A stretch of DNA of 64,000 nucleotides from contig NZ_JAIQZE010000004.1 in the NCBI RefSeq assembly GCF_020164595.1, positions 62,001 to 126,000 of the forward strand. The letters run 5' to 3'. Below the pieces are notes generated by a model that did not search any database, had not been told where the DNA came from, and saw only the letters and a program-made list of their open reading frames with translations. Positions 9,173 to 35,820 of the stretch are shown in pieces (the stretch's first letter is position 1; each line of letters begins with the position of its first letter). This DNA is from Psychroflexus longus. GTDB lineage: Bacteria; Bacteroidota; Bacteroidia; Flavobacteriales; Flavobacteriaceae. Made by a program: the position numbers and the translations under genes.

Positions 9173-10069
9173 ATGAATGATTACAAGCAGAAATTCTATA
9201 ATTACATAATTCTCTTAACCCTTTTCGCAGTTGGCGCAACCGAAATCTTTTCACAAGATCTTCAGTATGTTATAGCTTTATTGGGAATCTTTAGTTTTGG
9301 TATTTTACACGGTTCTAATGACCTTTTTGTGATAGAGAAATTAAACCATAACGATAAACAAAAACAATTTTTGAAATCACTCTTCACTTACTTAGGAGTA
9401 GTCTTTACCTTTGTAGTGGTCTTTTACGTTATTCCATTGTTTGCATTAATTGCTTTTGTACTTATTAGTGGTTATCATTTTGGAGAACAGCACTTTCACA
9501 GTAAAATTACCAATCAATCTTCAACTTTAGCGTCTTTCTTCTATTTGAGTTATGGGCTTTTAATTTTATTCCTCCTCTTGTACTTGAACCTGGAAGAGGT
9601 AATTGTTATTATAAAAGACATGACTAATTACACGGTCCCTGATTCTCTATTTCTCATTGTATTAATAGCATCATTTATTTCAAGCTTAATCCTATTTTAT
9701 TTTAACTCTATAAATAATTCTAAGTTAAAATCCTCAGCATTGGTCAATATCTTGTACTTGGTCATGTTTACAGTACTTTTTTATTTGAGTGACGTAGTGT
9801 GGGGTTTTGCTGCATATTTTGTCCTCTGGCATAGCATTCCATCACTAAAAGATCAAGTGAACTCGCTTTACGGTAAATTTCATTTTAAAAATTTCATGAA
9901 ATACTTTAAAAAAGCATTTCCTTACTGGCTAGCTTCAATTCTCGGTATGATAGTGGTTGTTTGGTTATTTAAAGACACCAAAAATTTTCTGTCCTTGCTT
10001 TTTGCATTCATTGCCGCAATTACTTTTCCTCATGTATTCATTATGAGAAAATTATTTGACCGTCGTTAA
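9173..10069 (+). CDS. blh: Beta-carotene 15,15'-dioxygenase, Brp/Blh family
   Basis: A 298-residue integral membrane enzyme that splits beta-carotene into two retinal molecules, the chromophore of the neighbouring proteorhodopsin. Conserved His and acidic residues of the Brp/Blh family are visible: LHGSND (His46, Asp50), YHFGEQHFH (His102, Glu105, His107) and LWHSIPS (His220). Several hydrophobic segments cover most of the length. The gene is divergent from proteorhodopsin and its stop codon overlaps that of btuD on the other strand by four bases. No carotenoid genes (crtEBIY) are in the window, so beta-carotene must come from elsewhere in the genome. Confidence 0.95.
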   Translation: MNDYKQKFYNYIILLTLFAVGATEIFSQDLQYVIALLGIFSFGILHGSNDLFVIEKLNHNDKQKQFLKSLFTYLGVVFTFVVVFYVIPLFALIAFVLISGYHFGEQHFHSKITNQSSTLASFFYLSYGLLILFLLLYLNLEEVIVIIKDMTNYTVPDSLFLIVLIASFISSLILFYFNSINNSKLKSSALVNILYLVMFTVLFYLSDVVWGFAAYFVLWHSIPSLKDQVNSLYGKFHFKNFMKYFKKAFPYWLASILGMIVVVWLFKDTKNFLSLLFAFIAAITFPHVFIMRKLFDRR

Positions 10070-10875
10070 TCGTTTTGAATTTTCATTCTAAAAGTTTTAC
10101 TGTTTTCATCAAACACAATGAAATCAGCTGGAAATAAAGTTTTAAAAGCTCCCTTTTGAATTAATTCTGAAGGAGTTCCAAAATCAACTTTTCCTTCATC
10201 GATTAGTATGATTTTATCACAAAGCTGAAGCGCTAAATTGATTTCGTGAGATGCAAAAAGAATGCTTTTTTGAGAGGTTTTTACTATGGTCTTAAGCAGT
10301 TGTAGAACATAGGCTTTATGAAACATATCGAGATGTGTGGTGGGTTCATCCATCAAAATTAATGGGGTATCTTGAGCCAAAGCCCTTGCGATCAATACTT
10401 TTTGAAATTGACCATCACTTAAGGAGTCGCACAATTTATCTTCCTTTTGAACTAAGTCCACCTGACTTAATGCTTTGTTAACTTTTTCAATATCTATTTT
10501 GCTCAACTGTCCCATCCAGTTGGTGTAAGGATGCCTACCCAAAGCAACCAATTCCATAACAGTCAGTTGTCTTGACACAGGCTCATTGGTTAAAACGAGG
10601 CTTAAATATGTACCTAAGTCTTTATCAAGGAGTCCTGACAATAACTGATGATCAATTTTTACTTCTCCAGACAAGGCAGGAATTTGGCCCGAAAGTGTTT
10701 TAAGCAAAGTCGACTTACCAGAACCGTTTACACCTATTAAAGCTACAAGCTCTCCTGTTTTGACTTCAAAATTAATCGCTTCAGCAACAGAAATTGTGCT
10801 TCTTTTTTCTCTGTAACCAACGTTTAAAGAAGAAGTTGAAAGCAAAATTTTATCGTGATTAAATTCAGAAGACAT
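10066..10875 (-). CDS. btuD: B12 ABC importer, ATP-binding protein
   Basis: A 269-residue ATPase of the FecE/BtuD group, energising import across the inner membrane. The Walker A motif is GVNGSGKST (residues 48-56), the signature is LSDGQ, Walker B with its catalytic Glu is ILMDEPTTHLD, and the switch His is in FASHE. It is the last gene of btuF-btuC-btuD, with one base between it and btuC. Sequence alone cannot separate cobalamin from iron-chelate substrates; the cobalamin riboswitch and BtuB-like receptor next door make B12 the better choice. Confidence 0.85.
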   Translation of the reverse strand: MSSEFNHDKILLSTSSLNVGYREKRSTISVAEAINFEVKTGELVALIGVNGSGKSTLLKTLSGQIPALSGEVKIDHQLLSGLLDKDLGTYLSLVLTNEPVSRQLTVMELVALGRHPYTNWMGQLSKIDIEKVNKALSQVDLVQKEDKLCDSLSDGQFQKVLIARALAQDTPLILMDEPTTHLDMFHKAYVLQLLKTIVKTSQKSILFASHEINLALQLCDKIILIDEGKVDFGTPSELIQKGAFKTLFPADFIVFDENSKTFRMKIQND

Positions 10876-10876
10876 A

Positions 10877-11899
10877 TTAAAAATTCAATTTTCGTTTTCT
10901 TAATAACAACCATATCACAACTGGAGCTCCAAATATGGAGGTGACAGCGTTTATTGGTAATGTACTTTCAGATCCTGGTAGTTGAGCAATAATATCACAA
11001 AAAAGCATCAATATTGCACCGCCTAAAATGATACTTGGTAAAAGAATTCTATGGTCATTGGTGGGGACGAGTTGTCTTACCAAATGCGGTACGGCCAAGC
11101 CTACAAAAGCTATTGGTCCAGCAAGTGCAGTAGCACTTCCAGCTAAAATAGAAGTTGAAACTATAATTAAAATCCGGTTTTTTTTCAATTGCACTCCCAT
11201 ACTTTTGGCGTAATTCTCGCCGAGCAATAAGGCATTGAGATTTTTGAGACAAAAGATAGCAAAGCTTAATCCGATAAACCAGCAAATGGATAAGATTCCA
11301 ACTTCCTGCCAGGATAAATTGCCTAAACTTCCAAAAGACCAAAAAATATAAAGCTGAAGTTCATTGGAACTGCTGAAATATGCCAAAACACTGACTATTG
11401 CCGAGGTAAGACTTGCTACCATTAACCCTATGATAAGTAAAGTCATCGTGTCTTTTACTCTTTGTGCAGTGGAGAGAACAGCCAACATTACAACTAAACT
11501 TCCACCGCTGGCCGATAGGATAATGGCCCATTTTGAAAACAAAAACTCCCCAAAAAAACCTGATAATAAACTTGCACCCATAATCAAAAAAGCAACACCT
11601 AAGCTTGCACCGCTACTTAATCCAAGTACATAAGGTCCAGCTAGTGGATTTCTAAATAATGTTTGCATCAAGAGACCGCTCACTGCAAGACCAGAACCTA
11701 TCAGAATGGCGGTTATTGTTTTAGGAAGTCGATAATTAACAATGATATAGTCCCAGGTTGAGTTCTCGATCGATAAACCAAACAAACTTTTTAAGATGTC
11801 TTGAAATGGAATGGAAACAGACCCTAAAGACAGACTCAGTATGATACCAACGAGCAATACGATAAACAAAAGAAAGTGGTTTATAAAGGCTTTACTCAA
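10877..11899 (-). CDS. btuC: B12 ABC importer, permease (FecCD family)
   Basis: A 340-residue polytopic inner-membrane permease of the FecCD/BtuC family with about ten transmembrane helices. The family landmarks RLPKTITAILIGSGLAVSGLLMQ (about residues 52-75), NPLAGPYVLGLSSGA and the C-terminal GPIAFVGLAVPHLVRQL coupling segment are clear. It overlaps the end of btuF by 8 bases and precedes btuD by one base, a tight operon. The B12 assignment rests on context. Confidence 0.86.
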   Translation of the reverse strand: MSKAFINHFLLFIVLLVGIILSLSLGSVSIPFQDILKSLFGLSIENSTWDYIIVNYRLPKTITAILIGSGLAVSGLLMQTLFRNPLAGPYVLGLSSGASLGVAFLIMGASLLSGFFGEFLFSKWAIILSASGGSLVVMLAVLSTAQRVKDTMTLLIIGLMVASLTSAIVSVLAYFSSSNELQLYIFWSFGSLGNLSWQEVGILSICWFIGLSFAIFCLKNLNALLLGENYAKSMGVQLKKNRILIIVSTSILAGSATALAGPIAFVGLAVPHLVRQLVPTNDHRILLPSIILGGAILMLFCDIIAQLPGSESTLPINAVTSIFGAPVVIWLLLRKRKLNF

Positions 11900-13028
11900 G
11901 ACTCAAGGGCTTAAAAAAAGTGAATTCTTCATTTTCTAAAAGTTCTGGGTGGAAAATTTTCACTAAATCTTTTAGGATCAAATCTGGTCGATTTGGGCCT
12001 AATTCGTAAAACAAAACACCACCAGTTTCTCCAGTCGTTCTGGCCATAGTAAATATATTTTTTTCCTGAAAAGCTTCAAACTCATTATAGTGTGTGTTGC
12101 TTTCCAACAGCTGATCATAGGATGTGAATTGACCAGGAGATATCCAGAATTTTGCGTTTTGAGCATCTTCCAAAACGGTTTCAAAAGAATAAGCAGCGCT
12201 GCCTTTTCCTTCGGTATGCTTGTAGATATAATCCGCATTTGCATCTTGGAAAAATTGAGCTTGCCAGCTTGTTCCATAAGGCAGGTACCAACGGTCTTGA
12301 TGCATGGCTCCAGAAATAACCGTAGGTTGGTCAGAGATTTCGGTAGCTAATTTTTTTATTGAATTGTAAGTTGACTCAACTTCATCAAAAGCCTGAACCG
12401 AAGCTTCCAGTTCACCAAGAAATACTCCGAAAAATTTAATCCACTCAGCTTTACCTAAAGCATCGTTTTCTAACCAATCTCCGTTGTATACTACAGGTAT
12501 TCCTGAATTTTGAATCTGATTCAAAGTTTTATTCTGTCCTTCAATAGCAAAACTGAATACCACATCGGGTTGGACCGAAAGTAGAACTTCCGTATTGAGG
12601 GATTCATTTTTCCCCAACTCTGTTATTTTTCCATCATTAATCATTACTCTGGCTTCTTCAGAAGAAATATAATTGAGTTTAGGAAAACCGACCAATCGAT
12701 CCAATTTGTTTAATGTGATGAGCGAAGGAATATGAGTTGTAGAGGTAGTAACCAAACTTTTTATGGGTAATTGAATCATGACATCGTAAGTAATGTTATC
12801 AGGAATTTTACCGTTTTCTTTAGTTAATAGGTATACAATATCCTTTTTGGCATTTTGCCAAGGAGAGTGAACCGTCACTTTAGTGAATTCAGGATACTCG
12901 TGGATTTCAAATCCATTAGCATATTCTATTTCAATTTCAGTGTAGTTTTGATTGTCATTAGATGATTCTTCTACTTTTTTACACGCAAAAAAACATGAAA
13001 AGATAATAAAAACTAATAGTGGTTTCAT
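11892..13028 (-). CDS. btuF: B12 ABC importer, substrate-binding lipoprotein
   Basis: A 378-residue periplasmic binding protein anchored as a lipoprotein: the signal MKPLLVFIIFSCFFAC has Cys16 as the lipidated residue. The body has the two-lobed helical-backbone fold typical of BtuF/FhuD proteins, with segments such as GKNESLNTEVLLSVQPDVV. It should receive cobalamin passed by the outer-membrane receptor and hand it to BtuCD. It is the first gene of the operon, with its own -7 element 17 bases upstream and no room for a leader riboswitch. Confidence 0.84.
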   Translation of the reverse strand: MKPLLVFIIFSCFFACKKVEESSNDNQNYTEIEIEYANGFEIHEYPEFTKVTVHSPWQNAKKDIVYLLTKENGKIPDNITYDVMIQLPIKSLVTTSTTHIPSLITLNKLDRLVGFPKLNYISSEEARVMINDGKITELGKNESLNTEVLLSVQPDVVFSFAIEGQNKTLNQIQNSGIPVVYNGDWLENDALGKAEWIKFFGVFLGELEASVQAFDEVESTYNSIKKLATEISDQPTVISGAMHQDRWYLPYGTSWQAQFFQDANADYIYKHTEGKGSAAYSFETVLEDAQNAKFWISPGQFTSYDQLLESNTHYNEFEAFQEKNIFTMARTTGETGGVLFYELGPNRPDLILKDLVKIFHPELLENEEFTFFKPLSLE

Positions 13029-13045
13029 TCAGTTTGAAGTTTTGA

Positions 13046-13053
13046 CAAAAGTA
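13046..13053 (-). promoter_or_regulatory. -7 promoter element TACTTTTG (btuFCD)
   Basis: An exact TAnnTTTG match on the minus strand, 17 bases before the btuF ATG at 13028. The predicted transcript has a leader of about 12 bases. Confidence 0.55.
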
Positions 13054-13140
13054 TGATTATTTATTTTGAATCTAATCCGCCTAAATTTTAAGCATTTTAA
13101 AATTCCAGCCACAAAATGAAGGCTTTCTTTAAGAAATGTA

Positions 13141-13148
13141 TACTTTTG
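13141..13148 (+). promoter_or_regulatory. -7 promoter element TACTTTTG (B12 riboswitch transcript)
   Basis: An exact TAnnTTTG match directly before the riboswitch. It places the transcription start near 13153, which coincides with the predicted first stem of the aptamer. Confidence 0.6.
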
Positions 13149-13149
13149 T

Positions 13150-13345
13150 AATGCATTTTGGTTCTCGAAAGTTTGTTTCAACTTTTGAAGATTAAAAGGG
13201 AATTCCGTTAAAATCGGAAGCTGTTCCCGCAACTGTAAGCTTAGTACGCCAATGGCGTATGCTTTATTCCTCAACTTCGTAACCACTGTTCCTCGGAATG
13301 GGAAGGTTGAATAAAGACGCAAGCCAGGAGACCTGCCTCAATGTG
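13150..13345 (+). promoter_or_regulatory. Cobalamin (adenosylcobalamin-class) riboswitch
   Basis: The conserved blocks of a cobalamin riboswitch occur in order: AAAAGGGAA (13194-13202), GGAAGCTGTTCCCGCAACTG (B12 box, 13216-13235), CCACTG (13283-13288), GGGAAGG (13300-13306) and AGCCAGGAGACCTGCC (13322-13337). Flanking GCATT (13153-13157) and AATGT (13340-13344) can close the first stem. It should bind cobalamin and shut down the downstream receptor genes. The 45 bases between it and the ATG can form a small hairpin (GACTTT / AAAGGTC) but have no U-tract, which suggests control of translation rather than termination. Confidence 0.95.
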
Positions 13346-13390
13346 TAATTTTTTAAAACGAAGACTTTCGGGATAAAGGTCGAGTGGTGT

Positions 13391-15226
13391 ATGAAGTACT
13401 CTATAATTTACAGTGCCTTGGCGTATTTTATTACGACGCTAAGTTACTCACAGTTGGATTCTATCCAGAAATTGGATGAAGTTTTTGTAGTTGACCGTCA
13501 AATTAATCGGTTTTCGACGGGTCAGATCCTACAATCTATTTCCAGCCAAACTTTGAAGGAGACACCAGGTCTGCTGACAGACGTTTTGAAGGAAAACACG
13601 CCTATTTTCTTCAAGCAAAACGGCTATGGTATGGTTTCGTCTCCTAGTTTTAGAGGGACAACAGCTCAACAAACTGCAGTGGTTTGGAATGGTTTTAATA
13701 TCAACTCACAATTTAATGGTCAAACTGATTTCAATACTCTGTTGGTCGATGGATTTGATGAGCTATCTGTGAGACCAGGTGGGGGAAGTGTGATTTATGG
13801 AACAGGAGCCATCGGCGGAAGTATCCACCTAAAAAATGAATTGAGATTTTCCGGTGAAACCAATTCAAGTTTAAGCGCTAGAGTAGGCAGTTTTTCAACT
13901 TATCAAAATTTACTCAAAGCTTCAACCTCTAATGATAAGTGGAGTTTATCCTTGGCTTTATCCCGACTTTCTTCTGAAAATGACTACGACTGGCCTGGAA
14001 CCAATAGGCAAAACCTTAACGGTGAGTTTGAACACTATAATGCCAACTTAAGTGTTTCCCGAAAAATAGATCAAAATAATCGAATTACTTACCATGGGAT
14101 GTATTTCAATGGGGATAGAAATTTTTCTTTGGTATTCCCATCGGATACTCCTTCTAACTATGCTAATGAGGATCATCGACACATGTTGGAATGGGAGAGT
14201 CGCTTTTCTGAAGTGAAATCAGTTTTCAAACTCGCTTATTTTGATGAGTTTTTCGAATATACTGCTAATGTGAATACTCCCAGACCAACTGGAGCGACCG
14301 CTCAAACTGCTCTAGCTCGATATAGCTTGTTTTATACGTACAGAGATTTTGATTTTAATGTGTTGAGTGAATATAATTATAGTACTGCAGATGGAGCTAA
14401 TGTGCTTTCAGAAAGCCGGACGATTGCCAGTTTTGCTCTTTTAAGCAAATACCATTGGAATGATCTTACTGCAGAAGTTAGCGTTCGACAAGAATATTCT
14501 GATGTTTATGACAGCCCGTTTTTATTCAGTTCTGGATTGAATTATGAATTTTCAAATTATGTGACAGCTAAAGCAAACGTATCCAAAAACTTTAGAATAC
14601 CCACTTTCAATGATTTGTACTGGGAGGGAAGTGGAAGAACGGATTTGTTGCCAGAAACTTCCAATCAAGCAGAGGCTTCGCTAATTTTTTCGGATACCAA
14701 AGACAAACATCAGTTGTCGCTTACTGGCTATTACAATGATATTACCAATTTGATTCGGTGGACACCAAATACAGAAAATATTTGGCAACCCGAAAATGTT
14801 GATAAAGTCGAAACTTATGGATTGGAAGCAAACTTCAGAAGTCAGCTACAATATGGTGAGCATAAGTTGAGAATTAATTCCTTATATGCGTATACCATTT
14901 CAGAAAACAAGCAAACTGGTTTTCAGCTCACGTATGTTCCCAAGCATCAGTTGACAAATAACCTGACTTACGAATTCGGACGATTTTCAACTAAAGTTCA
15001 AAGTTTATTTAATGGAGAAGTTTTTACCAGAGCAAATAATAGTGAAGGTGATATTTTGGAAGATTATATGCTTTGGAATGCTAGCGTTTCATACTTGCTC
15101 CCAGAATTTCAAGATTTAAAATTATCATTTCAAGTGAGAAATATAGCAGATACACCTTATCAAACTTTAGAAAACAGACCCTTGCCAGGAAGGCATTTTT
15201 TTATACAAACACAACTTAATTTTTAA
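13391..15226 (+). CDS. btuB: TonB-dependent vitamin B12 receptor (BtuB-like)
   Basis: A 611-residue outer-membrane TonB-dependent receptor. A signal peptide ends near residue 20. A TonB box-like stretch (LDEVFVV) is followed by the plug domain (about 40-140, with PSFRGTTAQQTAVVWNG) and a 22-strand barrel ending in an aromatic C-terminus (FIQTQLNF). It should import cobalamin using energy from TonB. The cobalamin riboswitch directly upstream supports B12 as ligand. The next gene follows after 12 bases and is probably cotranscribed. Confidence 0.92.
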   Translation: MKYSIIYSALAYFITTLSYSQLDSIQKLDEVFVVDRQINRFSTGQILQSISSQTLKETPGLLTDVLKENTPIFFKQNGYGMVSSPSFRGTTAQQTAVVWNGFNINSQFNGQTDFNTLLVDGFDELSVRPGGGSVIYGTGAIGGSIHLKNELRFSGETNSSLSARVGSFSTYQNLLKASTSNDKWSLSLALSRLSSENDYDWPGTNRQNLNGEFEHYNANLSVSRKIDQNNRITYHGMYFNGDRNFSLVFPSDTPSNYANEDHRHMLEWESRFSEVKSVFKLAYFDEFFEYTANVNTPRPTGATAQTALARYSLFYTYRDFDFNVLSEYNYSTADGANVLSESRTIASFALLSKYHWNDLTAEVSVRQEYSDVYDSPFLFSSGLNYEFSNYVTAKANVSKNFRIPTFNDLYWEGSGRTDLLPETSNQAEASLIFSDTKDKHQLSLTGYYNDITNLIRWTPNTENIWQPENVDKVETYGLEANFRSQLQYGEHKLRINSLYAYTISENKQTGFQLTYVPKHQLTNNLTYEFGRFSTKVQSLFNGEVFTRANNSEGDILEDYMLWNASVSYLLPEFQDLKLSFQVRNIADTPYQTLENRPLPGRHFFIQTQLNF

Positions 15227-15238
15227 AACCCAGATTAA

Positions 15239-16291
15239 ATGAAACAGTATTCAAACTTATTTTTATTGCTTTTATCCATCCTCATCGTATCCTGTAATAG
15301 TGATGATGACAATAATGAACCTTTTATTCCTGATGGTGATTATTTTGATGGAACGCTTATTCTAAATGAAGGAGGGTTCTCAGGGAGCTCTTCGGTTTCT
15401 TTTATTTCGAATGACCTCAGCGAAGTAGAAAATTCTATTTTTGAAAATACCAATGCCGATCAAAGCGTTGGATTATTTCCTCAATCTATATTTTTTGATG
15501 GTGATAGAGCTTTTATCATCTCCAATGGTTCAAATAAAATTAGTGTAGTCAATCGATTTACCTTCAAATTGATGGAAACTATAGAAGGCGATCTAAATGT
15601 CCCACGTTATGGAACTGTTCTTAATGGAAAAGCTTACGTCACAAATCAGGCTGCTTTTAATTCAGATCAAGATGATTTTGTAGCGGTTATCGACCTTGAA
15701 ACTCTACAAGTAGAAGAAACGGTCTTATTAGGTGCAGTAGCAGAGCATATTGTAAATGCAAATGAAACTATTTATATACAAAATCCTTCCCTCTTTGGTA
15801 GTGAAAATCCAGTTAATAGTGTTTCTGTTTTTAATCCTTCAAGCAATAGCATTGAAGACGTAATACAGGTAGGTGATAATTTAAATTCCTTAAAAGCTTT
15901 CAATAATAAAATTTATGCTCTAGATGATGATGGTGTGAAGATTATAAATACAGCAGATTTTAATATTGAAACTACAATAAATAAACCTGAAAACTCGGTC
16001 TCACTCAATAATTTAAGGATAGAAAGCGGACAGATGTATTACACTTCTGGAACAGCAGTTTATTCTTCTTCTCTATCTGCAACTGAATTATCATCAGAAA
16101 TCATTTTTGATTATGAAAGTGAACTTACTAATGGAACACTTTATGGATTTGATGTCAATGAAGGTCAATTTTATTTGGCTGATGCTGCAGACTTTGCCTC
16201 TAACGGGTCAGTATTTATTTATTCTTCTTCCGGAGATCTATTAGCCGACTTTACAGTTGGTCTAAATCCAAACGGCTTTTATTTTCAATAA
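15239..16291 (+). CDS. Surface lipoprotein, BtuG-like beta-propeller (DUF5074/YncE-like)
   Basis: A 350-residue lipoprotein: MKQYSNLFLLLLSILIVSC gives Cys19, followed by an acidic stretch S-D-D-D-N that resembles Bacteroidota surface-export signals. The rest repeats short blade-like units (GDRAFIISNGSNKISVVN, GKAYVTNQ, IYALDDDGVKIIN) typical of a YncE-like beta-propeller. In Bacteroides the BtuG lipoprotein has such a fold and caps the BtuB receptor to capture B12. The same order here behind a cobalamin riboswitch suggests the same role, but that is inference from fold and position. Confidence 0.78.
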   Translation: MKQYSNLFLLLLSILIVSCNSDDDNNEPFIPDGDYFDGTLILNEGGFSGSSSVSFISNDLSEVENSIFENTNADQSVGLFPQSIFFDGDRAFIISNGSNKISVVNRFTFKLMETIEGDLNVPRYGTVLNGKAYVTNQAAFNSDQDDFVAVIDLETLQVEETVLLGAVAEHIVNANETIYIQNPSLFGSENPVNSVSVFNPSSNSIEDVIQVGDNLNSLKAFNNKIYALDDDGVKIINTADFNIETTINKPENSVSLNNLRIESGQMYYTSGTAVYSSSLSATELSSEIIFDYESELTNGTLYGFDVNEGQFYLADAADFASNGSVFIYSSSGDLLADFTVGLNPNGFYFQ

Positions 16292-16313
16292 TTCTTTATC
16301 CTAATTTTTAATT

Positions 16314-16347
16314 ACAGCTTTATGCAGAAATGTGTAAAGCTGTTTTT
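16314..16347 (+). terminator. Intrinsic terminator of the B12 receptor operon
   Basis: The inverted repeat ACAGCTTTA / TAAAGCTGT around a 12-base loop is followed by TTTTG. It lies 22 bases after the stop of the BtuG-like gene. Confidence 0.75.
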
Positions 16348-16412
16348 GTTTATCATGTATTCTATTAACATAAAATTTGTAATTTCGAATTTATCATATC
16401 CAAGATTTAAAC

Positions 16413-17702
16413 TTGCTAAAACGACTAAAAACGCTCTTACAACATTCCACTTTTTTGAAAGTAAGTTCTTTCAACAGTTTTTCAGTGGTGGTAAAGATGA
16501 TTACTGGCTTAGGAGTTTCCAAATTGACAGCACTTTATCTTGGTCCACAAGGCATCGCTGTTCTTGGCAATTTGAGAAACGCTTTGGACATCTTCCATAA
16601 ATTCTCTAGCGGGGGTTTAACGAATGCAGTAGTAAAATATTCGGCAGAAAATAAAACAAAACCACAGGCTTTTTCACAATTTTTATCCACTTTGTTATAT
16701 TTTGGATTGGTGACTTGTGTCATCAGTATTAGTGCTATTTTCTTCTTTTCAGACTGGATCAGCACATTGATTTTCGGAAACAGAAACTTTGTAAATGTCA
16801 TCCAAATCTCAGCCTTTGTTTTACCGCTGCATGTGATGAATATCTACTTGATGTCAGTACTCAAAGGGTTTAGCGAATTTGGTAACGTTATTAAAATTAA
16901 TATTTCTGCCCATATTTTAAATCTTTCAGTATTTGCTATTTTGCTTTCCATCATGGATCTTGAAGGTGCCTTATTGGCTGTAGTCTTGGTCCCCTCAATG
17001 ATGCTTTTTTTTACTTTATATTATGTGCGAAACCACTTTGGAATATTAAAGTCTTTTTCGCTGAGTGAGTTTTCATCTCCAATGCTGAAGAATTTAGGAC
17101 AATTTGCTTTTATGACTTTGATTTCCAGTGTGAGTTTCCCTCTGGTTTTTTTAGGAATTCGAAGTTTTTTGATAAATACTATCGGTGAAGTTGGTGCAGG
17201 CTACTGGGAATCTACTTTAAGGATATCCAATTATTATTTGATGTTTGTTCTGTCATTATTGAATCTTTATGTTTTACCGAAATTGGCCAGTGCAACGACT
17301 CAATCAGAATTCAGAAGCATTGTATTTACATTTTACAAGCAAGTATTACCGTTTTTTATATTAGGATTAGTTATAGTTTATTTGTTAAGAGAATGGATTG
17401 TTAGATTGGTGTTTTCTGAAGAATTCCTACCTGCAGTAGATTTATTTTTGTGGCAAATTGTTGGTGACTTTTTTAGAGTTTTAGCTTTGGTGATGGTATA
17501 TCAGTTTCATGCCAAGAAAATGATGTGGCATTATATAATCACAGATTTGTTTTTAGCTTTAGGACTGTATTTGTCAGCTTTATATTTTATACCTATTGTT
17601 GGACTTGAAGGTGTTGTTTTAGGACATGCCCTTACTTATTTTTTATACTTTATTTTAATTTTAACCGTTTTCAGAAAGGCTTTGATATTGGAAAAGCAAT
17701 GA
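16413..17702 (+). CDS. O-antigen / lipid-linked oligosaccharide flippase (Wzx-type)
   Basis: A 429-residue polytopic membrane protein of the polysaccharide flippase (MATE/MVF) superfamily with about 12 helices. It should move lipid-linked sugar units across the inner membrane. The start is the TTG at 16413; the next in-frame Met (residue 29) falls inside the first helix. Its stop overlaps the next gene's ATG as ATGA, so the following glycosyltransferase is likely translationally coupled. It opens a surface-glycan gene group. Confidence 0.82.
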   Translation: MLKRLKTLLQHSTFLKVSSFNSFSVVVKMITGLGVSKLTALYLGPQGIAVLGNLRNALDIFHKFSSGGLTNAVVKYSAENKTKPQAFSQFLSTLLYFGLVTCVISISAIFFFSDWISTLIFGNRNFVNVIQISAFVLPLHVMNIYLMSVLKGFSEFGNVIKINISAHILNLSVFAILLSIMDLEGALLAVVLVPSMMLFFTLYYVRNHFGILKSFSLSEFSSPMLKNLGQFAFMTLISSVSFPLVFLGIRSFLINTIGEVGAGYWESTLRISNYYLMFVLSLLNLYVLPKLASATTQSEFRSIVFTFYKQVLPFFILGLVIVYLLREWIVRLVFSEEFLPAVDLFLWQIVGDFFRVLALVMVYQFHAKKMMWHYIITDLFLALGLYLSALYFIPIVGLEGVVLGHALTYFLYFILILTVFRKALILEKQ

Positions 17703-35450: not shown

Positions 35451-35720
35451 TTATTTTCTTAATCCTAATTCTTTTACAATTGCTCTGTACCTCAAAATAT
35501 CTTTCTTCATGAGGTAGTCAAGAAGATTTCTTCTTTTACCAACCAATTTTACCAGAGATCTTTCAGAATTATAATCTTTTCTATTTGTTTTAAGGTGTTG
35601 AGAAATGTGCTCAATTCTTTGAGTCATTAATGCAATCTGACCTTCGGCAGAACCAGAATCTTTCTCGTTCTTACCATGTTTAGCAAATAATTTGCCTTTT
35701 TCTTCTTGTGTTAAGTACAT
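35451..35720 (-). CDS. rpsO: 30S ribosomal protein S15
   Basis: An 89-residue ribosomal protein of standard length that binds the central domain of 16S rRNA during small-subunit assembly. The signature GSAEGQIALMTQRIEHISQHL and LVGKRRNLLDYL are intact. It is directly upstream of pnp on the same strand, the order found across bacteria. Confidence 0.98.
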   Translation of the reverse strand: MYLTQEEKGKLFAKHGKNEKDSGSAEGQIALMTQRIEHISQHLKTNRKDYNSERSLVKLVGKRRNLLDYLMKKDILRYRAIVKELGLRK

Positions 35721-35820
35721 GCCAATATTATTTCAATAATTTTTATGCTAGAATAGATTTTCTATTCGATTGCGCAAAAATAGCTTTTTAAAATTAAATA
35801 GAATATCAATTCTTAAAAAA

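Follow-up and report, generated by a model that had tools for sequence, protein, structure and literature searches.

The control of B12 uptake genes has been described for Bacteroides thetaiotaomicron and a flavobacterium. In B. thetaiotaomicron, according to the part of PMC12751083 available to us, BtuB-BtuG is under a riboswitch and operon 4 (btuF2C2D2) is riboswitch-free, which is the same division as in the locus analysed here, whereas operon 2 differs from it by placing btuB and btuG under the same riboswitch as btuFCD. The same part of that study describes all tested btu promoters as near-completely repressed by B12 in reporters, and its discussion includes operon 4; in the proteome, however, BtuF2 and BtuD2 were unchanged by B12 (0.7 and 0.9, neither significant), and the reported response of operon 4 is therefore in conflict between reporter and proteome. 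As far as this portion of the paper goes, operon 4 serves as a warning that a missing aptamer need not mean a missing B12 response. Start-site mapping in Flavobacterium psychrophilum placed the motif TAnnTTTG at -12 to -5 and gave a median 5' UTR of 24 nt (PMC9723704, in the sections available). For cobalamin riboswitches in general, the accessible text of PMC10653944 gives UCCCG as the consensus of loop L5, which pairs with L13.

Riboswitch and genes of the locus

The window, which denotes the whole 64,000-nucleotide stretch of Psychroflexus longus DNA that was analysed, holds two gene sets separated by an intergenic region (13029-13390) between btuF on the minus strand and a TonB receptor gene on the plus strand. 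The aptamer and the P13/L13 hairpin that follows it lie within this region, as can be seen in Table 1. The original prediction had placed a cobalamin aptamer on the plus strand before the receptor genes, and the Rfam scan bears this out with a match to the whole RF00174 model at 95.7 bits, compared to a gathering score of 31.5. This is the only RF00174 match when the whole 2.95-Mb genome is scanned. A permissive Rfam scan of the minus strand from 9900 to 16500, with matches accepted up to E 5, returned no cobalamin riboswitch. We infer B12 to be the ligand of the element.

Table 1 Features of the divergent B12 uptake locus. Positions are those of the window.
Feature	Position	Strand	Basis or remark
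btuD-like ABC ATPase	10066-10875	-	PF00005
btuC-like FecCD permease	10877-11899	-	PF01032; best NCBIfam match BtuC, 224 bits (cut-off 334)
btuF-like lipoprotein, periplasmic binding protein	11892-13028	-	PF01497 (Peripla_BP_2)
Predicted 13-nt btuF leader	13029-13041	-	Motif position and available part of PMC9723704
-7 element TACTTTTG, btuF	13046-13053	-	17 bases before btuF ATG at 13028; conserved in relatives
-7 element TACTTTTG, riboswitch/btuB transcript	13141-13148	+	Predicted start ~13153
Cobalamin riboswitch aptamer (RF00174)	13142-13354	+	Rfam
L5 loop UCCCG, predicted L13 partner	13225-13229	+	Sequence; TCCCG conserved in family riboswitches
B12 box AGCCAGGAGACCTGCC	13322-13337	+	Sequence and Rfam alignment
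P13/L13 hairpin, loop CGGGATA (13369-13375)	13363-13381	+	Nine bases 5' of btuB ATG
btuB-like TonB-dependent receptor	13391-15226	+	Domain match; PDB 8bmx, 8p97, 8p98 BtuB
btuG-like DUF5074 beta-propeller lipoprotein	15239-16291	+	Domain match; PDB 8p97/8p98 partner chain

The UCCCG of L5 is complementary to CGGGA at 13369-13373, and an L5-L13 kissing loop with a downstream P13 hairpin, the feature by which membership was judged, is the predicted pairing. TCCCG is present in 181 of 194 riboswitch cores of the family, where 194 is the number of distinct riboswitches among the fetched loci. In 177 of the 194 the P13/L13 motif follows 3' of the B12 box when one mismatch is allowed (140 have none), compared to 0.9 in shuffles, and in 163 of the 194 TTTCGGG sits in a hairpin whose stem pairs covary. 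The exact motif occurs in none of 230 sequences of 110 nt before btuF. Inspection by eye of the window sequence after P13 showed no terminator-like run, which suggests that control is translational. An alternative terminator pairing, CTTTT..CCGTTT, was present in just 11 of 194 leaders and was not used. Taking the loop of another stem as L5 gave a kissing loop in 29 of 148 cases, equal to the mismatched control (29.15), and was discarded for the L5 that PMC10653944 gives in its available part.

The best matches of the receptor and of the DUF5074 propeller are solved BtuB-BtuG complexes in the PDB, and their genes are adjacent, as in a BtuB-BtuG pair; the receptor scores below the curated NCBIfam cut-off (110 versus 600 bits). 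The genes for the periplasmic binding protein, the permease and the ATPase are adjacent on one strand, as in a BtuFCD gene set. None of the three reaches a curated B12-specific cut-off: the permease falls short of the BtuC model, as given in Table 1, and no B12 model for binding proteins is reached. The names btuFCD rest on linkage, and the genes are therefore called btuF-, btuC- and btuD-like. The BtuF-type protein is the only one in the genome and, among named genomes, is nearest to Psychroflexus (68% to P. tropicus). Directly beyond btuD lie a bacteriorhodopsin-like gene (PF01036, 8303-9076, minus strand) and a beta-carotene dioxygenase-like gene (PF15461, 9173-10069, plus strand), and elsewhere in the window Rfam reports an S15-Flavobacteria ribosomal protein leader (35718-35782, minus strand). 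The B12 users found in the genome are methylmalonyl-CoA mutase-type proteins (contig C40, 88644-91701, and contig C6). MetH (PF02965) and MetE (PF08267) gave no match in this genome, which is rated 99.98% complete.

Promoters of the two transcripts

A TAnnTTTG element 17 bases before btuF had been proposed, and it is found at exactly this distance from the ATG. Over the window the 8-mer alone is not significant (88 seen, 90.4 expected from shuffles), and the significance of the btuF copy comes from its conservation in relatives. Of the 150 loci, 13 lacked a recognisable lipobox and were dropped; among the 118 divergent relatives then counted, 101 have the motif no farther than 80 nt from btuF, compared to 8.9 expected from dinucleotide shuffles, and the other 17 have no exact motif. 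The element of the window itself is conserved in two Psychroflexus-like genomes (G174 and P. tropicus). On the riboswitch side only 34 of 103 relatives carry an exact TAnnTTTG (5.4 expected), so the start of the riboswitch/btuB transcript is less firmly placed.

With the motif and the placement given in the available part of PMC9723704, starts are predicted at ~13153 (plus) and ~13041 (minus), corresponding to leaders of 238 nt for btuB and 13 nt for btuF. A btuF leader of this predicted length would have no room for an aptamer, as had been claimed. The spacer between the btuF element and the start codon is mostly 16-26 nt in the relatives, apart from 25 (for example L042, L062 and L074) in which the -7 element ends 3-5 nt before the start codon and a leaderless or nearly leaderless btuF mRNA is predicted. 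TTG was the chosen btuF start in 50 of 137 loci (for example L036, L079 and L128); with ATG-only starts, 43 of 150 loci had none because btuF often begins with TTG.

Layout in the family and the phylum

In the family, 225 of 249 genomes have the riboswitch and 210 have a BtuF match. We examined 150 loci, namely 149 relatives taken by score rank and the window, with 60 of the 210 genomes with a BtuF match lying outside this set. The riboswitch is divergent from btuF and adjacent to it in 131 loci, divergent at 2.6-5.4 kb in 2, co-directional in 1, and absent from the stretch in 16, several of these stretches being short; since these loci share ancestry, the counts do not represent independent events. 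The original prediction had confined the riboswitch to the receptor arm, and in cis this agrees both with these counts and with the minus-strand scan of the window. An overlapping set of 80 named loci gave 64 adjacent divergent, 5 divergent farther away, none co-directional and 11 without a riboswitch. Rfam scans of 18 loci with no riboswitch near btuF found one in none of them. L120, with a same-strand riboswitch 4.8 kb upstream of btuF, is the only family locus in which one reads towards this gene. Placement of the riboswitch in cis to the receptor arm only is thus well supported, and it is a conserved, family-wide rule. A literature search in open-licence papers found no description of this flavobacterial layout.

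The phylum sample has the riboswitch in 288 of 296 genomes and a BtuF match in 76. From the 46 non-family genomes with BtuF, 41 were compared and their arrangement was classified by hand from coordinates; G338, G351, G454, G457 and G461 were dropped for weak BtuF matches. Among 17 non-family genomes of the same class, 5 are divergent and adjacent (all of one family), none is co-directional and 12 are unlinked, including G502, in which btuF lies near a contig end. In 24 genomes of other classes, the riboswitch lies upstream of btuF on the same strand in 16 (within 350 bp in 11, at 0.8-2.9 kb in 5) and is unlinked in 8. The sampled family thus places its B12 sensor before the outer-membrane genes, whereas other classes of the phylum place the same riboswitch class before the genes of the inner-membrane importer. 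Comparing the two groups offers a clean way to ask at which membrane a cell needs to control uptake.

Regulation of the two arms and comparison with known systems

The analysis demonstrates the aptamer, the hairpin, the promoter elements with their conservation, and the divergent layout. The regulation that we propose consists of two divergent transcripts with starts probably ~110 bp apart. The plus transcript would carry a class-I cobalamin riboswitch with all its parts (aptamer, L5 UCCCG and P13/L13 CGGGA) that ends nine bases before the btuB start codon. Binding of intracellular B12 should let the L5-L13 kissing loop stabilise P13, and expression of btuB-btuG would then be blocked, most likely when translation is initiated. 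The transcript on the minus strand would have its own sigma-A-type promoter, with a start ~13 nt before btuF, and no riboswitch; for this reason btuFCD would be out of reach of the switch and probably expressed more or less steadily. We consider this proposal as a whole, with riboswitch-controlled btuB-btuG and a separate, riboswitch-free btuFCD transcript, to be probable.

It is unlikely, in our judgement, that btuFCD is B12-controlled after all, whether by a transcription factor or by some undescribed element close to the btuFCD promoter. The B. thetaiotaomicron reporters, in which riboswitch-free operon 4 is described as B12-repressed, speak for such control and the unchanged BtuF2 and BtuD2 speak against it, both in the available part of PMC12751083. 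A conserved AAACATTTTGTTTAAT stretch between both promoters in a subset of relatives would be a candidate element, but it is absent in many relatives and is not intact in the window, and its partial overlap with the riboswitch-side promoter means that it may be promoter sequence. The original prediction had made an exception for antisense or transcriptional control and had suggested looking for a longer minus-strand leader. A minus-strand transcript starting inside or beyond the aptamer, which would give btuF a long antisense leader, seems very unlikely to us, although a flavobacterium shows frequent antisense transcription (281 CDSs, 12%, in the sections of PMC9723704 available). Beyond 13053 the next minus-strand TAnnTTTG of the window is at 14574, with none in between; in relatives, the motif is rarer than by chance within or past the aptamer on the strand of btuF (10 of 118 versus 19.5), and no conserved antisense promoter was seen on this strand among the 118 divergent relatives. 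The near btuF promoter is, on the other hand, conserved, and the argument covers promoters of the TAnnTTTG type. We regard it as very improbable that the ABC transporter imports another chelate and that its neighbourhood is incidental. No curated B12 model is reached by the binding protein, and its PDB matches, besides being weak, carry mixed annotations; yet the family loci link it to a B12 riboswitch (131 of 150), in 16 of 24 genomes from other classes its relatives are encoded downstream of a cobalamin riboswitch, and the genome has a single such protein.

Another reading couples the two divergent promoters into a single unit, in which traffic one way affects the other. The distance between the -7 elements is 56 bp in 25 of 119 loci, 55-57 bp in 34 and 49-57 bp in 57, counted after removal of duplicates (195 to 186); for 67 of the 119 the plus-side motif was relaxed. 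Predicted starts at this spacing are 66 bp apart and, given the footprint size, polymerase footprints would overlap, which counts for coupling. Within 45-60 bp the spacing has an sd of 2.4, compared to 5.9 and 11.5 for flanking distances, which is suggestive only because selecting a narrow spacing class favours a small sd. Spacing of 55-57 bp is possibly a new observation. When mapped on a BtuF tree built with FastTree, the 55-57 state requires at least 26 changes, a number as low being reached in 8 of 200 shuffles (mean of the shuffles 29.6), and the 49-54 state requires 8, reached in 0 of 200 (mean 21.3). The 55-57 state is scattered over the tree as if it were ancestral and often lost, or repeatedly reached, and mis-assigned motifs would scatter it as well. 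Coupling is distinctly doubtful in our view: the relaxed motif underlies much of the count, the spacing in the window is 102 bp (101 in P. tropicus, 56 in one Psychroflexus MAG), and E. coli bidirectional promoters are described as having basal firing too low for competition (PMC12825309, available part). Since the riboswitch acts after initiation, coupling alone would not pass on the B12 signal. In an extended form, the btuF and riboswitch promoters of the family would be a unit conserved head to head, the 55-57 bp between their -7 elements leaving room for only one polymerase at a time. Promoter competition would then set how B12 uptake at the inner membrane is balanced against that at the outer membrane, the riboswitch would trim one side after initiation, and the species of the window would belong to a lineage loosened to 102 bp; we would give this little credence.

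The marine Psychroflexus longus has the B12 riboswitch on the receptor mRNA only. A cobalamin riboswitch also precedes a TonB receptor gene of Flavobacterium psychrophilum (TBDT THC0290_1776), with expression confirmed in the part of PMC9723704 available to us. In Escherichia coli K-12 the Rfam scan likewise places a riboswitch before btuB only and none at btuCED or btuF. De Veaux and colleagues reportedly found E. coli btuCED unrepressed by B12. The arrangement is common to relatives and comparable in E. coli, hence conserved but ordinary; for the window taken alone it is ordinary. The receptor-only riboswitch split is not new, being present in E. coli K-12; there the btu genes are scattered over the chromosome, whereas here both arms are divergent neighbours and BtuG is present.
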